64,000 bases of DNA from Hufsiella arboris (GTDB lineage Bacteria; Bacteroidota; Bacteroidia; Sphingobacteriales; Sphingobacteriaceae). A model generated the notes under the pieces. The model was not told the DNA's origin and did not search any database. It was given only the letters and a program-made list of their open reading frames with translations. The stretch lies in NCBI RefSeq assembly GCF_009834875.1, contig NZ_WVHT01000005.1, forward strand, positions 1 through 64,000. Reading direction: 5' to 3'. Below, in pieces: positions 5,997-58,422 of the stretch. Positions within the stretch are counted from its first letter, which is position 1; each line of letters begins with the position of its first letter. The translations under genes were made by a program, and so were the position numbers.

Positions 5997-6464
5997 ATGA
6001 AAACATCTGAACTAATGAAGGCATCTTTTTTATATTGCACGTTAGTCGTTACCTGCATCTTTTCAGCATGCAGCAATAGCCCGTCAACCGGATCGCAAAG
6101 TTCAAGCGAGGGTACTGCTGTTGCTGATTCGGGCCAGGAAAATGCAACAATCGAATCAGCAAAAGCAAAATTTGCAAAAGGATATGAACTCTTGAGTAAA
6201 AGTGATTGCAAAGCCTGCCACGATACTGGTAATGAAATTGTCGGTCCGTCTTTCGAGCGCATCGCAGCGAGATACGTTTACTCAGATGCAAATATTACGC
6301 ATCTCGCAGAACGGGTCATTACCGGAGTCAAAACCGGGGAAGGCGTTTGGGGTAAAGCTGAAATGACACCGCATGTAAATATGAGCAAAACCGACGCGGA
6401 AGAAATAATCAAATATGTTCTTTCAATGCCGCCAAAACAAGGTTTAGATACAATCGCCAAATAA
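5997..6464 (+). CDS. Cytochrome c family lipoprotein
   Basis: A 155-residue lipoprotein with a mono-heme class I cytochrome c domain. The N-terminus has a signal sequence ending in FSAC, whose Cys is probably lipidated; a second in-frame ATG seven codons in is a possible alternative start. A Ser/Gly-rich linker follows, then the heme-binding CKACH motif near residue 73. The distal Met ligand is probably in KAEMTPHVNMSK. The fold resembles the small c-type domains used as electron carriers or as the heme part of membrane-bound sorbosone/pyranose dehydrogenases. It ends only 2 bp from the converging trpC, with no hairpin between them. Confidence 0.88.
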   Translation: MKTSELMKASFLYCTLVVTCIFSACSNSPSTGSQSSSEGTAVADSGQENATIESAKAKFAKGYELLSKSDCKACHDTGNEIVGPSFERIAARYVYSDANITHLAERVITGVKTGEGVWGKAEMTPHVNMSKTDAEEIIKYVLSMPPKQGLDTIAK

Positions 6465-6466
6465 CG

Positions 6467-7249
6467 TTACAGCCTGCCGGTGAATTCTTTTACAGCCTGT
6501 GCCGGATCAGACTCTTTCATAAAGTTTTCGCCTATCAGGAAACCGTTGAACCCAGCACTTTTGAGTTCATTTATTGTGTCCGTATTGCTGATGCCGCTTT
6601 CAGATACTTTCAAAAACTCATCCGGAATAAGCGAAACCAATTCATAGGAATGTTCCAGTGAAACGGTAAAGTCGGCAAGGTTACGATTGTTAACACCGAT
6701 GGCCGTGAGATCATCACAAATACTGCGGTCAAGTTCCTCCTGATTGTGTACTTCCAGTAAAATATTTAAGCCAAGATTTTTGGCGAATGCTGCCAGCGTT
6801 TTTATCCTTTCCGGGCTAAGAATCGCTGCGATTAATAAGATAATATCTGCACCCCAGGCCTTTGCTTCGAGTACCTGGTATTCATCCAGCATAAAGTCTT
6901 TTCGAAGCAGTGGAATGTCGACAGCTGTTCTTGCCTGCATCAAATCTTCCCGGAAGCCTTTAAAAAAAACATTGTCAGTTAACACAGAAATTGCCGAAAC
7001 GTTAGATGCGGCGTAAGCTTTTGCCACATCCTGAACCTCCGCTGTATCATTGATAATTCCCTTAGACGGTGAAGCGCGCTTGAATTCCGCAATGACGCCA
7101 TTTCGGCCATCATTCAAAATAAATTCGTTTAGATTATAGCATTCGCGGTTAAAAAAGGTGCTTTGCTGCAGTTCTTCTGTCGAAGTATGTGACTTTGCAA
7201 ATTTAATTTCACGTAATTTCTGTTCAACTATCTTATCAAGTATCGTCAT
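6467..7249 (-). CDS. trpC: Indole-3-glycerol phosphate synthase
   Basis: It catalyses ring closure of carboxyphenylaminodeoxyribulose phosphate to indole-3-glycerol phosphate in tryptophan synthesis. The 260 residues form a single TIM barrel. Motifs visible are EFKRASPSKG with the catalytic Lys near the start of the barrel, LLRKDFMLDEYQV, LLEVHNQEELDR, IGVNNRNLADF, and SESGI followed by GFLIGENFM at the phosphate-binding end. It is monofunctional and not fused to trpF. It lies 9 bp after trpG and is the last gene of the operon here. trpD, which usually sits between trpG and trpC in relatives, is not present. Confidence 0.97.
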   Translation of the reverse strand: MTILDKIVEQKLREIKFAKSHTSTEELQQSTFFNRECYNLNEFILNDGRNGVIAEFKRASPSKGIINDTAEVQDVAKAYAASNVSAISVLTDNVFFKGFREDLMQARTAVDIPLLRKDFMLDEYQVLEAKAWGADIILLIAAILSPERIKTLAAFAKNLGLNILLEVHNQEELDRSICDDLTAIGVNNRNLADFTVSLEHSYELVSLIPDEFLKVSESGISNTDTINELKSAGFNGFLIGENFMKESDPAQAVKEFTGRL

Positions 7250-7258
7250 CTTATCAGC

Positions 7259-7825
7259 TTAATTTTCCAGCCAGTTTTTTATCATTTCTTTTCCATGTTC
7301 GGTCAATACCGATTCGGGATGAAACTGTACGCCTCTTACATCGAAACTGCGATGTTTCAGCGACATCATAACTCCATCGGCATCACGGCTTGTTACCGTT
7401 AATTGTTCCGGTAGATCGTGATCGTTCACCGCCCACGAATGGTAACGGCCTATTTTAAAACTCTCTGGCAGATCCCTGAATAAGTTCTCTGATTTGTCGG
7501 TGACCTGCATAGTTGTTGCGCGCCCGTGAACAGGGCGGGACAAATTATAAAGACTGCCGCCAAACACTTCGCCGATGGCCTGCATACCGAGGCAAATTCC
7601 AAGGATGCTTTTTTGTGGTGCGTAAGTTTTAATCACGTCAAGCAGTAAGCCCGCTTCAGACGGGATACCGGGGCCCGGCGAAAGTAAGATTTTGTCAAAC
7701 CCGGCAACGTCTTCTATTTCGAATTTATCATTCCTCCACACGGTTGCCTCATATCCGCATTCATTTAACAAATGAACCAGGTTAAAAGTGAATGAATCAT
7801 AATTATCGATAACTAAAATTTTCAT
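7259..7825 (-). CDS. trpG: Anthranilate synthase component II (glutamine amidotransferase)
   Basis: A class I glutamine amidotransferase that supplies ammonia to TrpE. I take the start at ATG 7823-7825 (MKILVIDNYDSFTFNL), giving 188 residues; an upstream in-frame ATG at 7900 would overlap trpE and add 25 unrelated residues. The oxyanion strand LLSPGPGIPSEAG, the nucleophile motif ILGICLGMQAIGE with the catalytic Cys, and the HPESVLTEHG segment with the His/Glu of the triad are all present. It starts 10 bp after the trpE stop, so the two subunits are made together. A role in folate synthesis (PabA) is also possible, because this subunit can be shared. Confidence 0.95.
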   Translation of the reverse strand: MKILVIDNYDSFTFNLVHLLNECGYEATVWRNDKFEIEDVAGFDKILLSPGPGIPSEAGLLLDVIKTYAPQKSILGICLGMQAIGEVFGGSLYNLSRPVHGRATTMQVTDKSENLFRDLPESFKIGRYHSWAVNDHDLPEQLTVTSRDADGVMMSLKHRSFDVRGVQFHPESVLTEHGKEMIKNWLEN

Positions 7826-7835
7826 GGCTTGCGGA

Positions 7836-9257
7836 TTAATTAGTGAATGATTTAATTCCGAGTTCGCCGGCGAGTTCCATTGCTTTACGAAGCGCGGCAA
7901 TCTTGTTATTTACTTCATTTAACTCGCTTTCCGGATCAGAATCTGCAACAATCCCTGCACCAGCCTGGTAATGGAGAATATTGTTTTTACTTAAAAATGA
8001 ACGGATCATGATAGCGTGATTAAAATCTCCGTTAAAACTCATATACCCGATAGCGCCGCTGTAAAAGCTCCGAGAAACAGTCTCATAACGGTTAATGAGT
8101 TGCAGTGCCTTGTATTTCGGAGCGCCGCTTAGTGTACCTGCGGGAAATGTGTCGCTAACCACAAAAAACGGTTCTGTGTTTTCTTTTAACTGCCCGGTAA
8201 CCTTAGAGACAAGGTGGATGATGTGAGAATAATATTGAACCTCCTTGAAAGCTTGCACTTTCACGTTGCTGCAATTCCTGCTAAGGTCATTTCGTGCCAG
8301 ATCTACCAGCATCACATGCTCGGCGCTTTCCTTCGGATCGTTTTCCAGTTGTTCGGCTATCTTAGCATCAAGCAAATCATTTCCGGTCCGCTTGAACGTT
8401 CCAGCTATCGGGTAAATGGTAGCCTCCTTGCCCTTTATCGTCAGTTGAGCTTCGGGGGATGAACCGAAAATCCGGAAATCGCCGTAGTCAAAATAGAATA
8501 GATATGGTGAAGGGTTAATGGAACGCAAAGCACGGTAAACGTTGAATTCATCGCCGCTAAATGTTCTGGAAAAGGCCCTTGATGGAACGATCTGGAACAC
8601 GTCTCCCCTGAAGATATGCTGCTTCATTTTATTCACCAGCGCGATAAATTCATCATCTGTTAGATTTGATGACTCTTTATCGTGGCATTCAAAACCATAT
8701 TCCGGGAAGTTTTTATTTTGAATGAGATTTCTAACCTTCTCAAGCTCAGAAGTCTCTCCTTCAGTTAGATTTTCAAAAATAAAAAGTTCGTTTCTGAAGT
8801 GATCAATTGCGATGACATACCGGTAAACATGGTACTGCATCAATGGAATTTGTTTTCCTGTATCGGGTTTCTTTTCCAGTTTGATATCTTCGAAATGCTC
8901 GATGGTTTCGAAAGTAAAATATCCGAACAGGCCGCTTGATATTAGTTTTTGCTCTGGATCTGCATCAGTTTCAAACTTCGCTCTGAACTTCGCCACTTCC
9001 TGTTCAAGATCAATTTCGTTGCTCGGAGCACTTTGCTTTGTGCCATCAGGGAAATAGGATGAAAATTCATGTTCTGTAAGCACAAGGCCGGCAATCGGGT
9101 CGCAGCAGACATAACTCCGGCTGTTTTCGCGGCTGTGGTAATCGGAGCTTTCCAGCAGCAGGCTGTTTGGAAAAACATCCCGCAGGCGCAGATAAATGCT
9201 AACCGGTGTGGTTGTGTCTGCTAAAATTTTAGTGAATGTTGTATTTAATCTATACAT
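7836..9257 (-). CDS. trpE: Anthranilate synthase component I
   Basis: A 473-residue chorismate-utilising enzyme that converts chorismate and ammonia to anthranilate. The N-terminal regulatory region contains LLESSDYHSRENSRSY, which corresponds to the LLES tryptophan-feedback motif. The chorismate-binding domain shows DVFQIVPSRAFSR, FGSSPEAQLTIKG, IAGTFKRTG, HVMLVDLARNDLSR and the C-terminal YQAGAGIVADSDPESE. The LLES motif favours TrpE over the folate enzyme PabB. It is the first structural gene after the leader peptide and terminator at 9319-9448, so its expression is likely set by attenuation and its activity by feedback inhibition. Confidence 0.96.
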   Translation of the reverse strand: MYRLNTTFTKILADTTTPVSIYLRLRDVFPNSLLLESSDYHSRENSRSYVCCDPIAGLVLTEHEFSSYFPDGTKQSAPSNEIDLEQEVAKFRAKFETDADPEQKLISSGLFGYFTFETIEHFEDIKLEKKPDTGKQIPLMQYHVYRYVIAIDHFRNELFIFENLTEGETSELEKVRNLIQNKNFPEYGFECHDKESSNLTDDEFIALVNKMKQHIFRGDVFQIVPSRAFSRTFSGDEFNVYRALRSINPSPYLFYFDYGDFRIFGSSPEAQLTIKGKEATIYPIAGTFKRTGNDLLDAKIAEQLENDPKESAEHVMLVDLARNDLSRNCSNVKVQAFKEVQYYSHIIHLVSKVTGQLKENTEPFFVVSDTFPAGTLSGAPKYKALQLINRYETVSRSFYSGAIGYMSFNGDFNHAIMIRSFLSKNNILHYQAGAGIVADSDPESELNEVNNKIAALRKAMELAGELGIKSFTN

Positions 9258-9318
9258 ATCCTTAGTTTTTAAAGCATTTTAATTATGCGCTGCCTGGTTG
9301 CTCTGATGCTTTTTAAAC

Positions 9319-9350
9319 ACAAAAAAACCCGGCGTTTTGCGCCGGGTTGT
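9319..9350 (-). terminator. trp attenuator (intrinsic terminator in the trp leader)
   Basis: Read on the minus strand, AACCCGGC-(7 nt)-GCCGGGTT is a GC-rich stem followed at once by a run of T (the A run at 9319-9325). It lies between the leader peptide and trpE, 69 bp before the trpE start, so it would end most transcripts before the structural genes. The CCGGC in its first arm is complementary to GCCGG inside the leader-peptide coding sequence (9392-9397), giving an alternative antiterminator pairing. This is the standard arrangement for ribosome-mediated attenuation. The stems are seen; their switching is inferred. Confidence 0.88.
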
Positions 9351-9379
9351 GATTTAATGTCTTTAGATTGAACAACAAA

Positions 9380-9448
9380 TTAACAAGCAAAGCCGGCAGC
9401 ATTATTTTTATGCCACCACCAGTTGTTTGTATGTAATGCGTTCATCAT
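9380..9448 (-). CDS. trpL: trp operon leader peptide, three tandem Trp codons
   Basis: A 22-codon frame from ATG 9446-9448 (followed by a second ATG) to TAA 9380-9382. Codons 10-12 are TGG TGG TGG, preceded by Asn-Asn and followed by His-Lys. Three Trp in 22 residues, just ahead of an intrinsic terminator and trpE, is diagnostic of an attenuation leader peptide. The GCCGGC that can pair with the terminator's first arm lies 16-21 nt past the last Trp codon. A ribosome stalled for lack of Trp-tRNA would leave it free to form an antiterminator; one that reaches the stop would cover it. The promoter is so close that the peptide's mRNA may have almost no 5' leader. Confidence 0.85.
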   Translation of the reverse strand: MMNALHTNNWWWHKNNAAGFAC

Positions 9449-9453
9449 TAAGA

Positions 9454-9483
9454 CAAATCTAAAAAGAAAATCTGTTGATCAAA
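9454..9483 (-). promoter_or_regulatory. Promoter of the trp operon
   Basis: On the minus strand TTTG, an 18-nt spacer and TAGATTTG match the Bacteroidota -33/-7 consensus (TTTG, ~19 nt, TAnnTTTG). By the usual spacing, transcription would begin about 4-5 nt past the last G, at or next to base 9449. That is immediately before the leader-peptide ATG at 9448. Confidence 0.7.
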
Positions 9484-9498
9484 TTTTTTTATCAAATT

Positions 9499-9948
9499 TT
9501 AAGCGGAAGGCATTCCGATCAACGGCCGTTTGCTTAGCACGATAGCTACAACGATCACGATAAATGCAAGGCTGTAAAAAATCGCTATTGAACGATGTTT
9601 TTCCTGGTTGCTTTCCGCCTTTTTTGAACGTGAATGACCGATAGTTATCAATACAATTGCAAAAAGCATCATGACGATGTGCTCAACTGTCCAGTAACGG
9701 GTAGTGTCGTCCTTCATCGCGCTGCCCATATTGTTTAGTTGAACAAATGGACTTACAAAGTATAAAATCAACCCGAATAGAAATTGGGTGTGAGCCGATA
9801 TCATGGCAAAGAGATTTATCCGCTTGTTGTTTTTCGTGTAATTGCGATCTCCCAACCAGCCGGAAAACGCCTGAACAAGGGCTACAATCACAAGGATAAA
9901 AACGATATAACGAAATCCGGAATGAAGTTCTAGCAAGAATTTATACAT
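9499..9948 (-). CDS. Four-helix integral membrane protein, function unknown
   Basis: A 149-residue protein with four hydrophobic segments, at about 12-32 (YIVFILVIVALVQAF), 46-66, 86-106 and 124-142. Histidines lie in or beside the helices (LHSGFRYI, SAHTQF, VEHIVMMLFA, IGHSRSK), which is why homologues are sometimes labelled 'cytochrome b'. Heme binding is not demonstrated. The gene stands alone; its stop lies upstream of the trp promoter, so the trp operon is transcribed separately. I have no functional assignment. Confidence 0.8.
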   Translation of the reverse strand: MYKFLLELHSGFRYIVFILVIVALVQAFSGWLGDRNYTKNNKRINLFAMISAHTQFLFGLILYFVSPFVQLNNMGSAMKDDTTRYWTVEHIVMMLFAIVLITIGHSRSKKAESNQEKHRSIAIFYSLAFIVIVVAIVLSKRPLIGMPSA

Positions 9949-41865: not shown

Positions 41866-42310
41866 TTGGTTTAAGGTTTGGAAAGCAAAGGAAGATTTTC
41901 ATCGGATCAGATATTCCCGTGCTTCGCTCATACTGCACGGGCCTTAGCCACCTGGCCGGTATCCGCTTTGCCCGGGTTTAAAATGCAAGGATATTGCTAC
42001 TGTAAAAGATCATGTGCGGTGACCGCAAACGATCATAGTAAGTATTGCCGAAGTGCAATAAACGGGATGGAAGCGGCATCCTTTTTTGAGCGGAGGATAT
42101 AAGCTTGGAAAAAAAAGATACAGCGGACAGCCCGACTAATGTTAATTGAAACACGGAAACTGCTTTCTAAAATGAATATATAAGATTTATCCCTTAGTAT
42201 CAGGTTCCTTTAAACAATTCAACCCTCAGCATAAACTGCTTCAAAACAGAATTTGATTAAATATGCCATTGAGTGTCTTAATCTTCGACGACAATTAGAA
42301 CTCGAAATCG
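41866..42310. repeat. GC-rich intergenic segment with hairpins, possible dispersed repeat
   Basis: This stretch has no convincing gene. It contains a hairpin CCCGTGC-(12)-GCACGGG at 41916-41941, a near-palindrome TGCGGT-G-ACCGCA at 42015-42027 flanked by direct GATCAT copies (42008, 42031), and three AGCGG blocks (42072, 42089, 42122) in a purine-rich run ending CAGCGGACAGCCCG. Composition is markedly more GC-rich than the flanks. A 74-codon open frame (41878-42102) crosses it but has Cys/Arg/Ser-rich, non-protein-like content. From memory, similar strings recur between genes in related genomes, which suggests a dispersed repeat or decayed mobile element; this needs a genome search. The last ~170 bp before dapF hold nothing recognisable. 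Confidence 0.4.
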
Positions 42311-58353: not shown

Positions 58354-58409
58354 CTGATTGTTTTTTAGCATTTTTTAACGTGGTTGCAATCAACGCAAAT
58401 CGATCCACT
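58354..58409 (-). promoter_or_regulatory. SAM-II riboswitch upstream of metK
   Basis: On the minus strand P1 is formed by GTGG (58405-58408) and CCAC (58380-58383). The loop between them holds GATTTGCG and GATTG (58387-58391). After P1 come the class-typical TTAAAAAATGCTAAA and CAATC (58356-58360), which pairs with GATTG to make the H-type pseudoknot. GATTTG, GCAACCACG and ATGCTAAA match the SAM-II consensus as I remember it, and placement before metK fits SAM feedback. It lies about 70 bp upstream of the ATG. The structure was drawn by eye, without a covariance model. Confidence 0.8.
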
Positions 58410-58422
58410 GCGCTGCGAAAGT

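Follow-up and report, generated by a model that had tools for sequence, protein, structure and literature searches.

A putative ribosome-mediated trp attenuator upstream of trpEGC in Hufsiella arboris and related leaders in the Sphingobacteriaceae

The question raised by this locus is whether transcription into the trpEGC genes of Hufsiella arboris is controlled by a translated leader. The window, the 64,000-nucleotide stretch of DNA that was analysed, carries on its minus strand trpE for anthranilate synthase component I (7836–9257; PF04715 and PF00425), trpG for the glutamine amidotransferase component (7259–7900; PF00117) and trpC for indole-3-glycerol phosphate synthase (6467–7249; PF00218), which is the last gene of the operon; the ORF that follows trpC (5997–6464) lies on the opposite strand. 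The arrangement of the upstream region and its conservation in relatives argue that it is very probably a ribosome-mediated transcriptional attenuator, in which read-through into trpEGC would depend on charged tRNA-Trp. Such a reading widens the range of a textbook mechanism by a large family, the scanned loci of which escape the Rfam model for Bacteroidota.

All parts of the element lie on the minus strand. Directly upstream of the trp structural genes, the ORF list contains a frame of 22 codons (9380–9448) encoding the leader peptide MMNALHTNNWWWHKNNAAGFAC, in which three tandem Trp (UGG) codons, the putative regulatory codons, occupy 9413–9421 and the stop codon 9380–9382. Ahead of this frame, TTTG at 9483–9480 and TAGATTTG at 9461–9454 are spaced by 18 nt and match the −33 and −7 elements of Bacteroidota promoters, the latter fitting the consensus TAnnTTTG, and TAGATTTG ends 5 nt before the leader ATG. 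A sigma-70-type scan of the minus strand found no promoter, as expected for Bacteroidota. Between the leader ORF and trpE, an intrinsic terminator was found by the terminator scan at 9348–9326, consisting of AACCCGGCG–CAAAA–CGCCGGGTT with 9 pairs, 7 of them G-C, and a loop of 5 nt. Its 5′ arm (region 3, 9340–9348), which also appears in the fold, and its 3′ arm (region 4, 9326–9334) are followed by a T run at 9325–9321, and the stem lies 68 nt from the trpE start. Two terminator-like sites occur in 9200–9600 against 0.3 expected, the other one (9418–9394) being the stem around the Trp codons.

The pairing tests and the fold assign the 5′ half of the antiterminator, region 2, to UGCCGG at 9398–9393. 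Within it, GCCGG (9397–9393) can pair with CCGGC (9345–9341), and the pairing is extendable to UGCCGG:CCGGCG, where the alternative partner CCGGCG (9345–9340) lies inside region 3. Region 2 starts 14 nt past the last Trp codon, inside the leader ORF, and ends 10 nt before the stop codon. A preliminary description of this DNA had listed the promoter, the 22-codon peptide with its Trp triplet, the terminator with its T run and the GCCGG–CCGGC pairing, and had judged their spacing fit for ribosome stalling; each of these parts was recovered here, in the right order and spacing. Three features go beyond that description, namely a stem enclosing the Trp codons (9430–9410 with 9402–9383), the closeness of the promoter to the leader start, and a second attenuator elsewhere in the genome.

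Of 200 shuffles of the RNA at 9450–9260, 198 fold less well than the native sequence (z = −2.51). In the fold, the Trp codons lie within a 9-pair helix (9418–9410 with 9402–9394), which belongs to a longer stem of −16.3 kcal/mol. The 5′ strand of this protecting 1:2 stem, region 1 (9410–9430), runs across the Trp codons, and its 3′ strand (9383–9402) contains region 2. By placement, region 2 is free when a ribosome stands at the Trp codons and covered when it stands at the stop codon. Modelling of the alternative pairings, which had been suggested as a check, used ribosome footprints that are rounded textbook values. When the RNA was covered up to 9403 and the polymerase stood just past the first arm, the antiterminator was the best fold, at −12.3 kcal/mol. 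When the second arm was present and the Trp codons were masked, the terminator reached −20.4 kcal/mol against −14.2 kcal/mol for an enforced antiterminator; because the terminator wins at equilibrium, the switch must be kinetic, the choice being made while the RNA is still being transcribed. A ribosome placed at the stop codon left the terminator alone in the fold (−16.7 kcal/mol).

These folds suggest the following course of events. With ample tryptophan, a ribosome that has reached the stop codon would cover region 2 and leave the 3:4 terminator free to form. A shortage of charged tRNA-Trp would instead make the ribosome stall on the UGG triplet and open the 1:2 stem; the freed UGCCGG would pair with CCGGCG of the first arm while the second arm is still missing, and the polymerase would read on. 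Where translation fails altogether, the 1:2 stem would form and hide region 2, and termination would be the default.

Conservation of the tandem Trp codons had been set beforehand as a test of the attenuator. In one search (E ≤ 1e-100), trpE was found in 144 of 161 genomes of Sphingobacteriaceae, the family in which the NCBI taxonomy places both Hufsiella and Mucilaginibacter, and one genome with two copies brought the sample to 145 loci. A leader was scored as an ORF with W.?W before trpE, and the terminator rule was then applied after the leader. As a result, a Trp-cluster leader ORF was found at 140 of the 145 loci, with a terminator following in all 140, and the test thus came out in favour of conservation. 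On shuffled regions, which keep neighbour composition only approximately, the two rules combined gave 0/435 and the leader rule alone 16/435. The clusters were WW in 59 leaders, WWW in 57, WLW in 12, WQW in 6, WHW in 3, and WCW, WYW and WRW in one each. A looser count of 142/149, in which four loci of other families are mixed in, was set aside. The five misses (L021, L026 and L098 of genus g2, L029, and L143) were scored as such because the W.?W rule excludes loci with a single Trp codon. The three trpE loci of genus g2 keep a leader with just one Trp codon where the cluster normally stands, followed by a terminator in 3/3 cases.

The pairing between regions 2 and 3 is conserved as well. Across 127 distinct pairs from Sphingobacteriaceae trpE loci, region 2 scored a mean of 14.40 against its own terminator arm, a value that none of 500 permutations of the arms reached (maximum 13.63) and that exceeded the maximum for shuffled segments (10.32), where the permutations, here and for the outer stem below, ignore shared ancestry. 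The GCCGG/CCGGC pairing, whose conservation in relatives was to be checked, is therefore kept in the sense that region 2 fits its own arm better than permuted arms. The terminator arms differ between lineages and region 2 differs in step, as seen in the matched changes GCGACAAG/CTTGTCGC (L032), ACAGGCTTT/AAAGCCTGT (L030), GCATCGGGT/GCCCGATGT (L060) and GCGCAGG/CCTGCGT (L131). In 129 of 137 distinct loci, the distance from the last Trp codon to the start of region 2 is 12–23 nt. At 57 of these 137 loci, the best uninterrupted 2:3 helix has just 3–4 pairs, and one has to suppose bulges or a weak switch at these loci. In 20/140 loci, the stop codon precedes region 2, and a ribosome at the stop would then cover region 2 by its front only.

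For the 1:2 stem, a contiguous helix between the Trp codons and region 2 was rejected as the conserved form, since its score of 11.63 compares with maxima of 11.64 for shuffled and 12.02 for permuted segments; this helix is strong in the window and not above chance across Sphingobacteriaceae. An outer stem was then scored between the RNA just before the Trp codons and the RNA 20–60 nt after them, with segment limits picked after the test of the inner helix had failed. The 137 distinct trpE loci gave 15.42, against maxima of 13.35 for permuted (0/200) and 12.28 for shuffled segments. With the limits unchanged, 65 distinct trpD loci gave 15.55 (permuted maximum 13.66, 0/200) and 30 distinct trpE loci of other families gave 15.23 (permuted maximum 13.80, 0/200). 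The protecting stem of the window consists of the 9-pair helix and outer pairs, of which the outer stem is conserved. We infer that this stem would explain the likeness of some codons before the Trp run.

The same results bear on other ways to account for the region. The terminator might be a constitutive one, for instance that of the upstream gene at 9499–9948, and the Trp-rich ORF a chance frame. The upstream ORF does lie on the strand of the leader and its stop is 50 nt before the leader AUG, with no terminator-like site between. In addition, TGGTGGTGG occurs once in the window and at least once in 19 of 100 window shuffles, so the triplet by itself is weak evidence and the context carries the case. 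That context makes a constitutive terminator very improbable. A Trp-cluster ORF with a terminator recurs at 140/145 trpE and 65/70 trpD loci against 0/435 and 1/210 in shuffled regions, a promoter-like element separates the upstream gene from the leader, and the 2:3 and outer-stem pairings survive permutation.

Sensing of tryptophan without a ribosome, with the terminator controlled by a T-box, a TRAP-type Trp-binding protein or a riboswitch, is slightly less probable still, although such systems also use a terminator before a trp gene. No Rfam family matched at the leader at gathering level, and the 28 matches of a laxer scan included no T-box or Trp riboswitch. Ribosome-free systems need no Trp-rich ORF, yet this ORF is the most constant feature of the element. 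An equally slight chance is given to the possibility that the leader peptide is the main product, acting in trans like peTrpL of Sinorhizobium, and that attenuation is secondary. With short 5′ ends, the terminated RNA would indeed be a small leaderless mRNA, like that reported for S. meliloti (PMC7298713). However, both the length and the sequence of the peptides differ widely within Sphingobacteriaceae once the Trp cluster is left aside, and it is the RNA pairings that are kept.

The putative promoter of the trpE leaders lies close to the start codon. When distances of 3–12 nt were searched, a TTTG ended 4–12 nt before an in-frame start in 138 of the 140 Sphingobacteriaceae trpE leaders (134 ATG and 4 GTG starts), the distance being 5–8 nt in 104/138, and 118 of these leaders had the full TAnnTTTG. 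As a control, other ATGs of the same upstream regions had TTTG at that distance in 83/1115 cases and the full motif in 9/1115. Among 126 distinct promoters, the −33 place showed T in 98%, T in 87%, T in 67% and G in 64%, and the −7 element T in 93% and A in 92% at its first two places, its TTTG being imposed by the selection. In promoters of Flavobacterium johnsoniae deemed probable, transcription is reported to start 4 or 5 nt past the element (PMC6847099). Applied to the window, this spacing places the predicted transcription start at 9449, 0–1 nt before the leader AUG. With TTTG so near the start codon, the trpE leader mRNA should be almost leaderless, if the predicted starts hold.

Leaderless mRNAs are reported at 5.5% in F. 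psychrophilum (PMC9723704), and in B. thetaiotaomicron about 3.7% of 5′ UTRs are given as shorter than 10 nt (PMC7366714). The idea that near-leaderless starts are rare in the own genome was dropped. There, by a crude measure, a sample of 321 ORFs over 464 kb contained 45 with TAnnTTTG within 100 nt of the first ATG, and 16/45 had it at 3–11 nt, where the choice of the first ATG biases the count upward. The idea that such starts are special to Sphingobacteriaceae was likewise dropped; among 24 trpE loci of other families (L251–L274), 19 leaders had the strict motif, with 8 at 4–10 nt, 10 at 16–20 nt and 1 at 32 nt. The trpD leaders described below have a spacing of 5–15 nt, most commonly 10 nt (22/61, with 3–15 nt searched), and a CATATTTG box before the start in 47/61, while the spacing at the pheA leader of H. 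arboris is 18 nt. As these spacings are longer, the trpE leader stands at the short end of the range.

The upstream ORF of the window (9499–9948, minus strand) encodes 149 aa and matched no Pfam family within an E limit of 0.001. A reading frame resembling it precedes the leader in many relatives, as judged by eye. Because it lies on the strand of the leader, some transcripts may read through from it into the leader and carry a longer 5′ end.

If short 5′ ends are real, leader peptides without an upstream ribosome-binding site would occur throughout Sphingobacteriaceae and would be usable for studies of initiation in bacteria without Shine-Dalgarno sequences. We lean towards a picture of two unlinked operons, each with its own Trp attenuator, in which the trpE leader is truly leaderless and initiation takes place on a 5′-terminal AUG. 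Such an arrangement would provide an almost immediate stalling sensor that is free of an initiation site, in a phylum without Shine-Dalgarno sequences, and each termination event would release a tiny leaderless mRNA.

The second attenuator lies before the other half of the pathway. The trpD, trpF, trpB and trpA genes of H. arboris, confirmed by Pfam, stand together on another contig (C54), and are preceded by the leader MITTNAHKNWWWHNENSLGNPL with a terminator of its own (L295, 1151–1273). Region 2 and the arm of this element, GGCAATCC/GGGTTGTC, form 8 pairs, two of them G-U. A Trp-cluster leader and terminator were found before trpD at 65 of 70 Sphingobacteriaceae loci, 51 of the 65 being WWW, against 1/210 in shuffled regions. 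The misses were L326 and L334, which are short and at a contig end, and L347, L350 and L355 of genus g2, where no Trp leader was seen and a terminator was visible in 2/3. Region 2 of the trpD leaders scored 13.48 against a shuffled maximum of 11.61, but permuted arms reached this value in 176/500 cases because the trpD arms are much alike. The tandem Trp codons are lost from both the trpE and the trpD loci of genus g2, and this joint loss points to common selection on the two switches.

Gene order was read at 153 loci, a set in which some genomes are counted again through named records, and was EGC at 120, EGD at 22, EG at 8 and E at 3. In Sphingobacteriaceae, trpD followed trpG at none of the loci and the readable next gene was trpC, while outside the family the readable next gene was trpD in 22/22. 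In seven single-contig genomes with both genes, trpE and trpD were more than 1 Mb apart. No WW run was found at the trpG–trpD junction of the 22 loci outside Sphingobacteriaceae. In this sample, a second attenuator thus accompanies the split. The result is a natural experiment, where one pathway in two attenuated halves can be set against relatives with trpE-G-D and one leader.

The preliminary description had also called such leaders unfamiliar in Bacteroidota, which is half right. The trpE leader is an element of an already known kind, and that kind is known in Bacteroidota too: Rfam RF01692, Bacteroid-trp, derives from Weinberg et al. 2010 (PMC2864571) and is likewise a Trp-rich leader peptide before trpE. 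This model matched 9 of 20 scanned trpE loci of other families (L252–L271; 24 loci newly fetched), all preceding trpE-trpG and, where the next gene was readable, trpD. RF01692 (gathering score 49) had no match in the window; within Sphingobacteriaceae it matched 0/20 trpE and 0/20 trpD loci at gathering level and, with the limit relaxed to E 1, 0/12 trpE loci, L009 being common to this set and that of 20 trpE loci. The matched loci have a different layout, in which region 2 pairs best not with the first arm of the terminator but with its loop and second arm (9/9). For trpE loci of other families, the permutation test was marginal against the first arm (6/500) and clear against the loop and second arm (0/500). 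Region 2 of the matched loci lies around the leader stop codon with the core UCGUGA, extended to GUCGUGA in six, and the distance from the promoter element to AUG is 16–20 nt in 6/9 and 4–5 nt in 3/9. For F. psychrophilum, Bacteroid-Trp is reported as conserved before the trp operon (PMC6414381), and attenuation by leader peptides is described as strongly indicated upstream of amino-acid operons (PMC9723704).

The trpE leader element was not named by Rfam, either at gathering level or with the limit relaxed to E 10. The best sub-threshold matches, namely two enterobacterial sRNAs, a Pseudomonas leader and GadY, were discarded as chance, since they share little beyond the terminator. Attenuators in Bacteroidetes/Chlorobi were reportedly treated by Vitreschak et al. 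in 2004. The trp attenuator of E. coli follows the same logic, with tandem Trp codons, four pairing regions and an intrinsic terminator. It differs from the present element, which would leave no room for a Shine-Dalgarno sequence if the predicted start is right, and which has a Bacteroidota promoter and another operon content. The window scores 21.0 bits (E 0.044) with the Trp_leader model RF00513, below its gathering score of 41.

The trpLE(G) system of S. meliloti (rnTrpL/peTrpL) is described as similar in that the RNA 5′ end coincides with the trpL ATG and trpE(G) and trpDC are separate, and as different in that the RNA released by termination targets trpDC mRNA in trans (PMC7298713). In H. 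arboris, by contrast, trpDFBA has its own attenuator, and phylum, promoter and sequence are other. Leaderless initiation is also discussed for the ilvBNC attenuator of Corynebacterium glutamicum (PMC11857589), which concerns branched-chain amino acids in another phylum. Titles and the opening parts of abstracts in the literature searched mentioned no split trp operons with two attenuators and no leaderless Trp leaders in Sphingobacteriaceae. The division of the Sphingobacteriaceae pathway into unlinked trpEGC and trpDFBA operons with a Trp attenuator each, and a promoter 4–12 nt before the trpE leader start, look new.

Other leaders and RNAs were noted in the genome. No convincing leader was found before hisG and two ilvD-type genes of H. 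arboris. A Phe/Tyr-rich leader, MITTNAYFYGYFYFWSKSRD, and a terminator precede pheA, encoding prephenate dehydratase (L242, about 1598–1725, contig C53), and Phe/Tyr-rich leaders were seen by eye close upstream of pheA at 28 of 30 Sphingobacteriaceae loci including this one, with spurious frames only at L367 and L389. The residues MITTNA open both this pheA leader and the trpD leader (L295) of H. arboris, and the two may share an origin. At about 1915–2050 of L238 (reverse complement, contig C23), a terminator follows the Thr-rich leader MILISSTTITTTTTTRNHGEEG, which lies by position just upstream of a long ORF with a homoserine dehydrogenase domain, the start of which is approximate. In the window itself, a SAM-II riboswitch (RF01726, 55 bits) was found at 58355–58414 on the minus strand, and a Flavo-1 RNA (RF01705, 57.9 bits) at 42056–42141 on the plus strand.
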